Positions 4,244 through 39,344 of a stretch of 64,000 nt of DNA are shown one piece after another. The DNA is from an uncultured Algibacter sp. (GTDB taxonomy: Bacteria; Bacteroidota; Bacteroidia; Flavobacteriales; Flavobacteriaceae). Positions within the stretch are counted from its first letter, which is position 1; every line of letters begins with the position of its first letter. The stretch covers positions 1 through 64,000 of the forward strand of contig CANMZT010000012.1 of assembly GCA_947502405.1 (NCBI GenBank), written 5' to 3'. Both the position numbers and the translations under genes were made by a program. The notes beneath the pieces were generated by a model. It was not told the origin of the DNA, searched no databases, and saw only the letters and a program-made list of their open reading frames with translations.

Positions 4244-6208
4244 ATGGCAAACGAAAAGAAAAATATAAAAGACAAAAAACCAAAATTCAGTCCATATTGG
4301 ATTTATGGTATATTAATAGCCCTATTTCTAGGTTATCAATTGTTTAGTGGTGGAAACTATCAAGATGCAAATAAAACAACACCCTCTGATTTCTTTAAGT
4401 ATCTTGAGGCTGGTGATGTTGAACGTGTAGATATTGTAAAAAACACACGCGTAGCTAAAGTATATTTAACCAAAGATGCTGAAGCTAAAGAGATCCATAA
4501 AGGTTCAAAACCACAAACATTTATTCCTTCAGCCACAGCTTTACCTAATTATAGATTTGAATTTGGTGATCTTCAGAATTTTGAAAATCAACTCAATGCA
4601 ATGACTGAGGATTTATCGGTAAAACCTATTGTTACCTTTGATACAGAAACCAACGATTGGGGTAATTTATTGATGGGTATCTTACCTTTTATTCTTTTGA
4701 TTGGTGTATGGATATTTATCATGCGAAGAATGTCTGGTGGTGCTGGAGGTGGTGCTGGCGGACAAATTTTTAATATTGGAAAATCCAAAGCTAAACTCTT
4801 TGATCAGAATACTGAAGTAAAAACAAGCTTTAAGGATGTTGCTGGTCTTGAAGGTGCAAAAGAAGAAGTTCAAGAAATTGTAGATTTCTTAAAATTTCCA
4901 GAAAAGTATACTACACTCGGTGGTAAAATTCCAAAAGGCGCACTACTTGTAGGCCCTCCAGGAACAGGAAAAACCTTGTTAGCAAAAGCTGTTGCAGGTG
5001 AAGCTAAAGTCCCTTTCTTCTCCTTATCTGGTTCGGATTTTGTTGAAATGTTTGTTGGAGTCGGAGCTTCTCGTGTTAGAGATTTATTTAAACAAGCTAA
5101 AGAAAAATCGCCATCAATTATATTTATTGATGAAATTGATGCTATTGGTCGTGCTAGAGGTAAAAATGCCATGTCTGGTAGTAATGATGAACGTGAAAAT
5201 ACCCTAAACCAGTTATTAACAGAAATGGATGGTTTTGGTACAAACACAAATGTTATTGTAATAGCAGCTACCAATAGGGCAGATATCTTAGATAAAGCCT
5301 TAATGCGTGCTGGACGATTTGATAGACAGATTTTTGTAGATCTGCCTGATGTAAGAGAACGTAAAGAGATTTTTGAAGTACACCTAAGACCACTTAAAAA
5401 AGCAAAAGATTTAGATTTAGATTTCTTATCAAAACAGACCCCTGGATTTTCGGGAGCAGATATTGCCAATGTTTGTAATGAAGCAGCTCTAATTGCTGCA
5501 AGAAATGGAAAGAAAGCTGTTGATAAACAAGACTTTTTAGATGCTGTAGATAGAATTATTGGTGGTCTTGAAAAGAAAAACAAAATTATTACACCTAGTG
5601 AAAAACGCGCAGTAGCATTTCATGAAGCTGGACACGCGGTTACAAGCTGGATGTTAGAACATGCAGCTCCATTGGTTAAAGTTACTATCGTACCTCGTGG
5701 GCGCTCATTAGGAGCAGCTTGGTATTTACCAGAAGAACGATTAATAGTTAGACCTGAACAAATGCTAGATGAAATGTGTGCCGCTTTGGGTGGTCGAGCT
5801 GCTGAAAAAGTGATTTTTGATAAAATATCAACAGGTGCGTTAAGCGACCTAGAAAAGGTTACTAAACAAGCCCGTGCAATGGTTACCGTTTATGGTTTAA
5901 GTGATAAAATAGGTAACCTCACTTATTATGATTCTTCGGGACAAGGTGAATATGGGTTTACTAAACCTTACAGCGAAGAAACAGCAGAACTTATAGATAA
6001 AGAAATATCTAGTATTATTGAAGAGCAATATCAAAGGGCTATAAAATTACTAGAAGCAAATAAAGATAAGCTAACAGAACTGGCTGAAGTTTTATTGGAA
6101 AAAGAAGTGATTTTTAAGGATAATCTTGAAAAAATATTTGGGAAACGTCCATTTGAAAAAGAACAACCTGAAAATAAAGAAATAGCCTTAAAAGACGAGG
6201 AGGAATAA
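4244..6208 (+). CDS. ftsH: ATP-dependent zinc metalloprotease FtsH
   Basis: This membrane-anchored AAA+ protease degrades membrane and short-lived cytosolic proteins. In order it has a charged N terminus, a first membrane helix (about 17-35), a periplasmic domain, a second helix (about 145-161), a Gly-rich linker, the AAA module with Walker A GPPGTGKT at 237-244 and Walker B FIDEIDAIG, the second region of homology ending RAGRFDR, and the M41 peptidase domain with the zinc motif HEAGH at 460-464. At 654 residues it is full length. The periplasmic domain has an insertion compared with E. coli, as is usual in Bacteroidetes. A strong terminator follows. Confidence 0.98.
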   Translation: MANEKKNIKDKKPKFSPYWIYGILIALFLGYQLFSGGNYQDANKTTPSDFFKYLEAGDVERVDIVKNTRVAKVYLTKDAEAKEIHKGSKPQTFIPSATALPNYRFEFGDLQNFENQLNAMTEDLSVKPIVTFDTETNDWGNLLMGILPFILLIGVWIFIMRRMSGGAGGGAGGQIFNIGKSKAKLFDQNTEVKTSFKDVAGLEGAKEEVQEIVDFLKFPEKYTTLGGKIPKGALLVGPPGTGKTLLAKAVAGEAKVPFFSLSGSDFVEMFVGVGASRVRDLFKQAKEKSPSIIFIDEIDAIGRARGKNAMSGSNDERENTLNQLLTEMDGFGTNTNVIVIAATNRADILDKALMRAGRFDRQIFVDLPDVRERKEIFEVHLRPLKKAKDLDLDFLSKQTPGFSGADIANVCNEAALIAARNGKKAVDKQDFLDAVDRIIGGLEKKNKIITPSEKRAVAFHEAGHAVTSWMLEHAAPLVKVTIVPRGRSLGAAWYLPEERLIVRPEQMLDEMCAALGGRAAEKVIFDKISTGALSDLEKVTKQARAMVTVYGLSDKIGNLTYYDSSGQGEYGFTKPYSEETAELIDKEISSIIEEQYQRAIKLLEANKDKLTELAEVLLEKEVIFKDNLEKIFGKRPFEKEQPENKEIALKDEEE

Positions 6209-33960: not shown

Positions 33961-34016
33961 TGTCTCATCCAGCACAGTCGAGAGATTTTAAAGGTCTCGA
34001 CTGCGCTCGACCAGAC
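33961..34016. repeat. Miniature inverted palindromic pair (56 bp), no gene inside
   Basis: The outer ends are TGTCTCATCCAGCACAGTCG on the plus strand and TGTCTGGTCGAGCGCAGTCG on the minus strand, separated by a few bases. Its right arm is identical over 27 bp (33992-34018) to the right arm at 36193-36219 that flanks a GIY-YIG pseudogene. It fills the kynU-kmo gap. Confidence 0.75.
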
Positions 34017-34024
34017 AAAAGAAC

Positions 34025-35427: not shown

Positions 35428-35829
35428 ATGAGCGACAAAGTAACTCCAAGAGGTGCATATCCCCACACAAAGCGGGTTGGCGATTTTATATTTGTATCTG
35501 GAACCAGTTCAAGAAGAGCAGATAATACCATAGCTGGTGTTGATATTATCGACGAGATGGGTACCAAGTATTTAAATATTGAAGTTCAAACTCGAGAGGT
35601 TTTAAAGAATATTGAAAAGAATTTAGCCAATGAAGGTGCCACTTTAAAAGATGTGGTTGATGTTACTTCTTTTTTAGTAAACATGAATGATTTTGCTGGT
35701 TATAATAAAGCATACGCAGAATTTTTTGACAAGGAAACAGGACCTACACGAACCACAGTTGCTGTGCATCAATTACCGCATCCAGATTTGGTTGTTGAGA
35801 TTAAGGTTGTGGCTTATAAAAAATCATGA
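35428..35829 (+). CDS. RidA/YjgF-family protein, probable 2-aminomuconate deaminase
   Basis: The 133-residue protein belongs to the trimeric RidA family. Landmarks are [22 protein letters not shown] near 8-29, a [12 protein letters not shown] helix, and [25 protein letters not shown] near 105-129 with the conserved active-site arginine. Generic RidA proteins hydrolyse reactive enamines, and a subgroup in aminophenol and 3-hydroxyanthranilate pathways deaminates 2-aminomuconate. Position between kmo and a 2-aminomuconate semialdehyde dehydrogenase candidate favours that role; this is inferred from context. Confidence 0.88.
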
Positions 35830-35841
35830 ATTTAACTAAAC

Positions 35842-36219
35842 TGTCCCCTCGAGCGCAGTCGAGAGGTTTCTTATGAAGACTTATTTTGTGTACATACTAA
35901 AATGTTCTGATGGACTAACATACACAGGAATAACAAATAATATTTCTAGAAGATTTGAAGAACATCAAAATGGCTTAAATAAAAATTGTTTTTACTTTTA
36001 AACGAAGACCTTTAGAACTTATTTTTCGACAAGAATTTAATAATGCAAATCAAGCTATATATTTTGAAAAGAAAATTAAAAAATAGAGTGGAAAGAAAAA
36101 ATTAGCTTTAGCAAATGACAATTTTGATATGTTAGAGATTTTAGCTGAATGCAGAAATGCTACACATTCAAAATATAAGCCAGAAAATAAATAGGTCTCG
36201 ACTGCGCTCGACCAGACAA
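35842..36219. mobile_element. Palindrome-flanked unit carrying a GIY-YIG pseudogene
   Basis: The left arm TGTCCCCTCGAGCGCAGTCG (from 35842) and the right arm, read on the minus strand from 36219 as TTGTCTGGTCGAGCGCAGTC, form imperfect inverted ends of about 27 bp around a broken GIY-YIG nuclease gene. The same arms without a gene form the 56-bp unit at 33961-34016. Mobility is inferred from the shared ends. No target-site duplication was established. Confidence 0.5.
35873..36194 (+). pseudogene. GIY-YIG nuclease-family gene, frameshifted and with a nonsense codon
   Basis: From ATG 35873 the frame reads KTYFVYILKCSDG then LTYTGITNNISRRFEEHQNG, a clear GIY-YIG domain. After the T5 run at 35989-35993 the frame shifts by +1, and the rest (KRRPLELIFRQEFNNANQAI, then FEKKIK) continues in the next frame. 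TAG at 36084-36086 replaces the tryptophan expected before SGKKKLAL. The last sense codons end at TAG 36192-36194, inside the right palindromic arm. Two separate lesions show it is inactive. An intact gene would encode about 106 residues of the UPF0213-like small nuclease family. Confidence 0.88.
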
Positions 36220-36259: not shown

Positions 36260-37699
36260 ATGGACATCCAAAACTTCATAAACGGCAAATTCGAAAATCC
36301 AATCTCAAATGAATGGATAGACAATTATTGTCCTGAAAACGGTGAAGTTTACGGAAAAACACCAAACTCTTCAAAATTAGATGTTGAAAATGCGGTTAAA
36401 GCTGCAAAAGAAGCTTTTCCTAATTGGTCTCAAACCACTTTAGAAAAACGTAGTAGCATATTAATTAAAATCTCAGAATTATTAGAATCGAATTTACAAC
36501 GCTTTGCTGAAGCAGAAAGTAAAGACAATGGTAAACCAATCAGTTTAGCAAAAGCAATTGATATTCCGAGAGCAGCAAGTAACTTTCGTTTCTATGCACA
36601 TGCTATAACTCAATTTGCTAGTGAGAGTCATGAAAGTGTAGGCCTGAACGCTATAAATTACACCTTACGTCAGCCTATTGGCGTTGTTGGTTGCATATCA
36701 CCTTGGAATCTACCACTCTATTTATTTACATGGAAAATTGCTCCAGCCCTAGCTGCTGGAAATTGCGTAGTTGCAAAACCTAGTGAAATAACACCTATAA
36801 CCGCCTTTTTACTTGGAGAAATTTGTAATGAAGCTAGATTACCAAAAGGTGTTTTAAATATTGTTCATGGCTTAGGAAACACAACAGGGCAAGCTATTGT
36901 TGAACACCCAGAGATTAAAGCCATTTCGTTTACCGGTGGAACAGTAACCGGAGCACATATTGCCAAAATTGCTTCACCAATGTTTAAAAAATTATCTTTA
37001 GAGTTAGGCGGTAAAAATCCAAATATCATTTTTGCTGATTGTGATTATGAAGATATGTTGTCTACTACTGTGCGTTCCTCTTTTGCTAATCAAGGACAAA
37101 TATGTTTATGTGGTAGTAGAATTTTTATTGAAGCCTCTATTTATGAAAAATTTAAAGCTGATTTTATTGAAAAAGTAAAAGCTTTAAAAGTTGGACACCC
37201 GTCTAATGAAGATACTGATGTTGGTGCTTTAGTTTCAAAACCACATTTAGAAAAGGTTATAAATTACATAGAGATTGCTAAAGAAGAAGGTGGAAAAATA
37301 CTTTATGGTGGAAAACAAGTCACTGTCGAGGGTTTTGAGAATGGTTATTATTTTGAACCTACCATTATTGAAGTAGAAACACACGAATGTAGAATAAATC
37401 AAGAAGAAATTTTTGGACCTGTTGTTACTATTATGCCTTTTGAATCTGAAGAAGATGTATTAACCATGGCAAACAAAGTGAAATACGGATTATCTGCAAC
37501 GTTATGGACAAACAATTTGAAACGCACCATGCGAATGAGTAATGCGTTACAAGCAGGAATTGTTTGGGTAAATACTTGGATGCTTCGTGATTTACGAACA
37601 CCATTTGGCGGTATAAAAGCTTCTGGTATTGGTCGTGAAGGCGGTTTTGAAGCTTTACGGTTTTTTACTGAAGCTAAAAATGTTTGCATAAAATACTAG
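36260..37699 (+). CDS. Aldehyde dehydrogenase, probable 2-aminomuconate semialdehyde dehydrogenase
   Basis: The 479-residue NAD-dependent enzyme shows PWNLPLYLFTWKIAPALAAG, KPSEITP, FTGGTVTGAHIA, ELGGKNPNII with the general-base glutamate, and GQICLCGSR with the catalytic cysteine. EEIFGPVV and the closing PFGGIKASGIGREGG are also present. The best pathway assignment is oxidation of 2-aminomuconate 6-semialdehyde, the product of the ACMSD decarboxylase in the same cluster. The closely related 2-hydroxymuconic semialdehyde dehydrogenases cannot be excluded from sequence alone. Confidence 0.92.
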   Translation: MDIQNFINGKFENPISNEWIDNYCPENGEVYGKTPNSSKLDVENAVKAAKEAFPNWSQTTLEKRSSILIKISELLESNLQRFAEAESKDNGKPISLAKAIDIPRAASNFRFYAHAITQFASESHESVGLNAINYTLRQPIGVVGCISPWNLPLYLFTWKIAPALAAGNCVVAKPSEITPITAFLLGEICNEARLPKGVLNIVHGLGNTTGQAIVEHPEIKAISFTGGTVTGAHIAKIASPMFKKLSLELGGKNPNIIFADCDYEDMLSTTVRSSFANQGQICLCGSRIFIEASIYEKFKADFIEKVKALKVGHPSNEDTDVGALVSKPHLEKVINYIEIAKEEGGKILYGGKQVTVEGFENGYYFEPTIIEVETHECRINQEEIFGPVVTIMPFESEEDVLTMANKVKYGLSATLWTNNLKRTMRMSNALQAGIVWVNTWMLRDLRTPFGGIKASGIGREGGFEALRFFTEAKNVCIKY

Positions 37700-39260: not shown

Positions 39261-39340
39261 TGTCATTCCTACAAAAGCAGGAACCTTAGACATAACAACT
39301 TAATTTTAAAAAAATAGATTCCTGCCTTAGCAGGAATGAC
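39261..39340. repeat. Paired inverted palindromic arms between haaO and ACMSD genes
   Basis: TGTCATTCCTACAAAAGCAG and, inverted, TGTCATTCCTGCTAAGGCAG bound a 32-base AT-rich spacer. The right arm contains the ATG at 39336 that would otherwise be taken as the start of the next gene. Confidence 0.75.
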
Positions 39341-39344
39341 AAAA

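Follow-up and report, generated by a model that had tools for sequence, protein, structure and literature searches.

A GIY-YIG nuclease gene enclosed by palindromic arms in Algibacter as a candidate minimal mobile element with REP-like ends

The small GIY-YIG nuclease gene that we have analysed in the genome of an uncultured Algibacter sp. lies, as a broken copy, between two inverted palindromic arms, and closely similar arrangements recur around related genes in other members of the Flavobacteriaceae and beyond. We consider it likely that the unit REP-GIY-YIG-REP, about 380 bp long, constitutes a minimal mobile element, with gene-less dimers of the same palindromes as its non-autonomous form and an Slx1-like nuclease as the enzyme of the CGTC-tagged REPs. 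The architecture, its breadth, the matching of enzymes with arms and the presence or absence of the element at orthologous sites are shown by the sequence comparisons presented below.

The window locus and its nuclease

The stretch of DNA under study, hereafter called the window, comprises 64,000 nucleotides (assembly GCA_947502405.1, contig CANMZT010000012.1, positions 1 to 64,000), and its relevant features are collected in table 1. An initial annotation, made from the sequence alone, had described a GIY-YIG gene interrupted twice, by a frame change at a T5 run and by a TAG, and enclosed by imperfect inverted arms of which the right one overlaps the end of the gene; both claims held, the coordinates being confirmed by direct reading and the two arms being 87% complementary over 23 nt. 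It had also claimed that the right arm is repeated over 27 bp at the close of a unit without a gene, and indeed positions 36193-36219 (27 nt) equal 33992-34018 letter for letter, the unit measuring 57 bp instead of 56; the 81-bp dimer of another arm family had been missed. The names of the flanking genes are provisional: we take those on either side of the element to be RidA-like and aldehyde dehydrogenase-like, and that beside the 57-bp dimer to be kynurenine monooxygenase-like.

Table 1. Coordinates of the element and associated features in the window
Feature	Position	Strand	Remarks
Left arm, palindrome with TGTC tag outward (S-type, REP-like)	35842..35869	+	Read directly; same arm type flanks the G121 orthologue
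GIY-YIG nuclease gene, broken	35873..36194	+	Start codon 35873; frame change at T5 run 35989-35993; TAG 36084-36086; final stop 36192-36194; PF01541 profile
Right arm, palindrome with tag outward (...GACA)	36193..36218	-	Overlaps the GIY-YIG stop codon (36192-36194)
Gene-less dimer of the window element's two arms, 57 bp	33961..34017	.	Upstream gene on one side, kynurenine monooxygenase-like gene on the other
Gene-less dimer, T-type arm family (TGTCATTCC...GGAATGACA), 81 bp	39261..39341	.	
RidA-like gene, left of element	35428..35829	+	Marker of orthologous junction
Aldehyde dehydrogenase-like gene, right of element	36260..37699	+	Marker of orthologous junction

The nuclease copy in the window is dead: its PF01541 score is 35.3 bits, with internal stops, while its orthologue in the congeneric genome G121 is open over 106 aa (L153:1893-2213, minus strand), scores 65.3 bits and, apparently intact, is flanked by arms of the same type. 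The gene-less unit at 33961-34017 is predicted to fold as one long hairpin and in folding beats each of 200 shuffles (z -4.0); the left arm alone folds slightly better than shuffles (z -1.7, with 13 of 200 shuffles as good) and the right arm alone is no better than shuffles (z 0.2). With up to three mismatches, the core TCGACTGCGCTCGA occurs at four sites of the window against 0.66 expected, a number reached by none of 100 shuffles, and CGACTGCGCTCGA has 15 copies in the 3.79-Mb genome, its reversed control having none. A generic scan of the window for hairpins tagged with GTC was unspecific, giving 6 hits against 13, 10 and 11 for control tags. Both these core shuffles and the controls with open reading frames (ORFs) described below reject a chance association; the placement of the GIY-YIG gene between inverted arms in the window is real.

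The protein consists of a bare GIY-YIG domain of about 100 residues. In an alignment of 40 proteins, residues Y22, G24, T26, R32 and E69 are invariant and H36 is nearly so; the orthologue and its relatives thus carry the Y, R, H and E of catalytic type that define a GIY-YIG enzyme, the window copy itself being broken. The AlphaFold2 model has a mean pLDDT of 91.6. UPF0213 was the sole match at E <0.001 in the fold search (E 1.3e-4), followed by weak matches to Slx1 chains (E 0.025-0.14), and the profile search ranked UPF0213, Slx1 (E 9e-5), endonuclease II, I-TevI (listed as intron-associated endonuclease 1) and UvrC in this order, so that UPF0213 and Slx1 nucleases are the closest to the element's protein in both folds and profiles. 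Slx1 depends on Slx4, and its role in repair is exerted on branched DNA, in line with the titles of the matching structures. The match of protein P0001 to TIGR01453 lies under the cut-off of the latter. The gene does not qualify as a homing endonuclease residing in an intron, intein or conserved gene target, for at both sites compared it lies in intergenic DNA, flanked by palindromes; nor does it encode the HUH tyrosine transposase of a REPtron, being a PF01541 GIY-YIG gene (this applies to the gene and not to the RAYT content of the whole genome). A defence system was considered too and rejected, as of three proteins only one had PADLOC matches, and these were weak and partial.

Palindromic arms beside related genes

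The PF01541 profile finds 11 places in the window's genome, and the flanks were inspected at eight of them (L001-L007 and the window copy). Clear facing arms are present at L002, L003, L004, L005 and the window copy; L001 and L006 sit among repeats with GTCATT ends, and L007 has no such facing arms. The small GIY-YIG gene of this last locus (G000:C13:45195) is a different one and lacks CGTC-type arms, having on both sides, as judged by eye, a repeated terminator-like palindrome followed by an apparent tRNA 3' end.

Three broader samples bear on the frequency of this arrangement. The set of named genomes was obtained with the L003 protein as query and includes the 80 best-scoring among 167 named loci, almost all of them from Flavobacteriaceae; four of the 80 were left out for short flanks. 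Taking an inverted pair scoring at least 28 between the 150-bp flanks as arms, these are present at 61 of 76 genes and at only 8 of 515 other ORFs taken from these loci, and the eight armed controls correspond to two GIY-YIG genes, three 23S_rRNA_IVP genes, one DUF559 gene and two other genes. The family set was picked by protein score only: 59 genomes of the family, the window's included, contributed 102 non-redundant loci. Of these, 101 could be placed, L007 being left out because no query matched it. At an arm score of at least 26, arms were found at 64/101 genes versus 1/74 control ORFs, leaving 37 genes without an arm pair at this threshold. By best-matching subfamily (T, S, N, S2, K, T2 and F are labels coined in this analysis), the armed genes are 22/33 for T, 22/31 for S, 11/19 for N, 2/7 for S2, of which five are thus among the genes lacking arms, 2/4 for K, 3/4 for T2 and 2/3 for F. 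An earlier flank test, in which mismatched flank pairs served as the null, placed 23 of 37 loci above the 95% point and eight above the 99% point; this null is inflated because arms are common to several loci, and therefore ORF controls were used later.

The third sample covers other replicons, with 16 loci read among 34 plasmid-collection records having a homologue and chosen to span genera (Spirosoma again belongs to Bacteroidota). Scores of at least 34 are reached by 10/16 genes against 2/26 control ORFs, and scores of at least 26 by 12/16 against 3/26. On inspection, eight of the 16 loci carry a CGTC-type REP on either side of the gene, the tags pointing away from it, namely those of Rhizobium CIAT894, Shinella (two), Neorhizobium, Azospirillum, Aeromonas caviae, Novosphingobium and Sphingobium. 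In S. meliloti and Neisseria the gene is also bordered by hairpins on either side, but in a different orientation, with tags not outward, Sinorhizobium K101 has a hairpin upstream of the gene only, and among the 16 loci read no tagged pair is present in Planktothrix, R. tumorigenes, Photobacterium, Spirosoma and Sphingomonas. The homologue on the Planktothrix agardhii plasmid (L136), which lacks tagged arms, has as neighbours an MmeI-type restriction gene on one side and the DISARM gene drmA on the other. In Azospirillum lipoferum AZO_p3 (L144), the GIY-YIG gene has a whole REP dimer on each side and is located between sufB and sufC, and at L100 (flanks of 5001-5294) both REP arms share the same long extra loop, as if copied from each other.

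The association between GIY-YIG genes and palindromes is hence established as sequence statistics. The initial annotation had proposed such a link for flavobacteria, a scope that proves too narrow, since the range extends to other replicons, including those of Pseudomonadota. It would have been refuted if nuclease genes usually lacked arms, an outcome that failed to appear in either the named or the family set; the association is supported, while the moving of palindromes by the nuclease remains an inference, with the standing of a strong hypothesis.

What kind of palindrome are these arms? CGTC-tagged REPs have a CGTC, TGTC or CCTC tag, a stem of 8-9 bp opening with AT, a loop of 4-5 and a CCA tail, occur mostly as dimers, and include dRS3 of Neisseria as well as RPE-4 and RPE-6 of Rickettsia (PMC3733652). 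The taxa common to that paper and our arm sample are Azospirillum lipoferum, Novosphingobium aromaticivorans, Sinorhizobium meliloti and the genus Neisseria. The T-type arms, with the layout TGTC-ATTCCTGC-loop-GCAGGAAT-CCA, and the eight proteobacterial loci agree with this description in tag, stem, loop, CCA-like tail and dimers, although Novosphingobium and Sphingobium deviate on the AT start. The tag, unpaired at one end, and the dimer arrangement are as expected for CGTC REPs. The S-type arms of the window differ in having a shorter and imperfect stem, and do not meet the stem definition: the predicted stem of the left arm opens with C-G pairs, with a loop of 6 and a weak fold. We call them REP-like because their tag and dimer layout match while the stem does not; that they belong to the CGTC superfamily is possible and unproven. 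A further difference is that no dedicated transposase is given for CGTC REPs, whereas here a GIY-YIG gene lies between two REPs.

The tags mostly point away from the gene. Among the named loci with arms (n = 66), left arms have 60 outer GTC versus 2 inner GAC and right arms 56 outer GAC versus 8 inner; in the family set with arms (n = 64), outer versus inner tags number 34 versus 8 on the left and 35 versus 13 on the right. For pairs with a gap of at most 100 nt in the fetched loci, the outward, inward and same-direction counts are 48, 26 and 20 for T, 9, 3 and 10 for S, and 8, 7 and 17 for N; the tag-outward preference of dimers is thus clear for T, modest for S and nil for N.

Other observations emerged from the same loci. 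An S-type REP core lies in an apparent coding region at L272:493-526 (G000:C13:24099), a situation recalling the RPEs of Rickettsia, and is found at the same place with altered sequence in G041, G126 and G121. Genes of the 23S_rRNA_IVP / TIGR02436 four-helix-bundle family also lie between inverted arms of their own (L104:6661-7014, L057:582-896, L112:166-513; also L128 and L287), with 5/9 distinct genes in the fetched loci scoring at least 26. A DUF559 gene between palindromic arms of CACCTCCCTTT type (L119:614-976) represents a third small gene family so arranged, as a single case.

Arm types, dispersed repeats and orthologous sites

Across the 64 armed loci, the similarity of arms between genomes follows that of the proteins with rho 0.594 (permutations: mean 0.000, sd 0.025, none of 2000 as high). 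S enzymes have S arms in 18/22 cases and N enzymes N arms in 10/11, while the 22 T-assigned genes are mixed, with 12 T-like arms, five N-like, three of another type and two unclassed. In the arm-type tree, built with 66 typed named loci (14 of the 80 were omitted, the left arm being untyped or the protein shorter than 85 aa), the two left-arm types of one subfamily are separated on the protein tree by a single change (support 99/93; 0/500 shuffles). Each enzyme subfamily tends toward its own arm sequence, and part of this match is plain co-inheritance, as predicted by a single moving unit.

Copies away from the enzymes give a less sharp picture. Among 120 genomes of the family, T-type repeats are present in 35, S-type in 55 and N-type in 52, the reversed controls giving 0, 1 and 0 sites; the window's genome has 22 exact T-type sites, of which four flank GIY-YIG genes. 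At least four repeats occur in 8/12 genomes with a close T enzyme versus 3/63 without a match, 15/21 versus 12/71 for S, and 7/17 versus 3/64 for N. Taking the three repeat families together, 44/73 genomes with an enzyme of the three subfamilies have at least three copies of one of them, versus 7/47 without, kinship being uncorrected. The second refuting outcome, palindromes equally common in relatives devoid of GIY-YIG genes, is thus not observed when judged by subfamily; all 120 genomes have some PF01541 match. After subtraction of two copies per close enzyme, performed by hand for T and S only and again without correcting for genome kinship, an excess remains in 5/12 versus 8/108 genomes for T (p 0.003) and 13/21 versus 22/99 for S (p 0.001).

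This evidence does not extend to specificity at the genome level, which is weak: non-cognate correlations between enzymes and repeats (rho 0.23-0.43) are nearly as strong as cognate ones (0.42-0.48), and genome copy numbers do not prove specificity. Moreover, a close T enzyme is missing from 6 of the 11 genomes with at least eight T repeats (one of the six, G005, retains a broken relative); G075, G081, G095, G097 and G115 are rich in T repeats and lack such an enzyme. Among the 22 genomes with at least eight S repeats, 7 give no match of S type at 1e-12. The window's genome has, at 1e-12, only the broken S enzyme, yet 13 S cores outside that element, as would be expected once the enzyme has been lost.

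Orthologous sites provide a different kind of evidence (the window's genome is G000 in these comparisons). The junction between the RidA-like and aldehyde dehydrogenase-like genes was compared in four genomes: it measures 433 bp in the window and 432 bp in G121, which has the apparently intact orthologue, shrinks to a 3-bp gap in G124, another congeneric genome, and is occupied by 126 bp of other sequence in G123. G000 and G041 carry the L002 element, which G121, G127 and G125 lack and in place of which G126, G120 and G122 have another insert; this insert carries a 23S_rRNA_IVP / TIGR02436 gene in G126 and G120, with an internally shortened copy in G122. Gene-less dimers vary likewise. At the site of the 57-bp dimer, the genes overlap with neither gap nor insert in G121, G124 and G127, and other sequence lies in G041, G126, G123, G120 and G122, ending in a T-type REP in G041 and G126. 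A T dimer at C13:25826 is shared by G000 and G041 but missing from G126 and G121. One intergenic site is occupied by an S dimer in G000 and by T dimers in G041 and G126, with a remnant left in G121, and therefore such sites are reused. The comparison of occupied with empty sites, which had been suggested together with the initial claims, thus did find empty orthologous sites; no target-site duplication was seen by eye at the four sites compared, the edges being uncertain by some bases. Mobility of the element is probable on these grounds, which are comparative only.

Competing readings, mechanism and significance

Three other explanations deserve consideration. REP dimers could be older and spread by something else, with a selfish nuclease gene of homing type cutting them and inserting between their halves. 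The location of the gene exactly between two facing REPs, the resemblance of gene-less dimers to the element minus its gene and the whole dimer on each side of the Azospirillum gene speak for this possibility, and GIY-YIG domains are classic homing enzymes. Nevertheless we regard it as unlikely, for at the two gene-bearing sites gene-free relatives show an empty junction (G124; G121, G127, G125) or other inserts (G123; G126, G120, G122) and never a gene-less dimer, while gene-less dimers appear and vanish on their own. Alternatively, another enzyme might spread the REPs, and the small nuclease genes would ride along as passengers or be tolerated beside them, a view compatible with the several repeat-rich genomes that lack a close enzyme and with the similar non-cognate correlations. 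Against it, the 2013 survey did not find CGTC REPs to be associated with genes for transposases (PMC3733652), and a single gene family with conserved residues of catalytic type recurs between arms in both Bacteroidota and Pseudomonadota, its arms following the subfamily; we hold this reading to be improbable. That the hairpins are merely terminators or regulators of the gene's own transcription is practically ruled out: one terminator-like hit overlaps the left arm (35848-35863), but terminator-like sites in the region are at chance number (2 versus 1.5 expected) and the arms also occur elsewhere as gene-less dimers and singles.

We thus return to the mobile element as the preferred reading. 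The window locus would be a decayed copy in which two outward-tagged palindromes of CGTC kind have the space between them filled by the GIY-YIG gene of about 100 residues, and the gene-less pairs (57 and 81 bp in the window) would relate to the full element as REPINs do to RAYT genes. The palindromes may extrude, forming hairpins or a cruciform; near the junction of tag and stem the Slx1-like nuclease would then introduce a nick, which would free a hairpin-ended copy or make a break, and host replication or recombination would then install a new copy. A branched-DNA nuclease acting on extruded palindromes is a natural reading by inference, and the hairpin of the gene-less dimer may be a plausible substrate. 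However, cleavage of REPs by the nuclease, excision, insertion and the route of copying are all inferred in the absence of biochemical data, and the insertion step remains unexplained because no GIY-YIG enzyme is known to us to perform strand transfer.

The analogy with RAYT enzymes that had been drawn at the outset is apt, since CGTC-tagged REPs have been reported to lack, apparently, a dedicated transposase (Di Nocera et al. 2013, PMC3733652). The element shares with REPtrons and REPIN-RAYT systems of GTAG REPs a small enzyme gene flanked by REPs, gene-less dimers and the matching of enzyme and repeat, but has a GIY-YIG nuclease instead of an HUH tyrosine transposase and the tag GTC instead of GTAG. 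With MITEs and insertion sequences it has in common terminal inverted repeats, full and gene-less forms and presence or absence at orthologous sites; it differs in showing no target duplication and in having a GIY-YIG nuclease as its sole gene. We count it as a variant of the REP-plus-enzyme kind that is new in its enzyme class, because this class is unrelated to the known REP enzyme. No earlier report of a link between GIY-YIG and REPs was found in the titles and abstract starts of the open-licence PMC literature searched (preprints excluded), and GIY-YIG is not mentioned in PMC6006769 or PMC10969869.

A bolder interpretation, to which we lean by a narrow margin, is that small stand-alone GIY-YIG nucleases are the missing enzymes of CGTC REPs and define a new class of transposable element (about 380 bp) relying on a structure-specific nuclease in place of a transposase; as 23S_rRNA_IVP four-helix-bundle and DUF559 genes are laid out in the same manner, it would then exemplify a more general principle. 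Bacterial genomes commonly contain palindromic repeats as non-coding features, and for one of the two large REP superfamilies the partner enzyme has been reported missing (PMC3733652). The candidate proposed here is testable, with a protein of about 100 residues and a substrate of about 27 nt, and would bear on the dRS3 and RPE repeats. If the proposal is true, these bacteria would harbour a transposable element whose sole enzyme is an Slx1-like nuclease.
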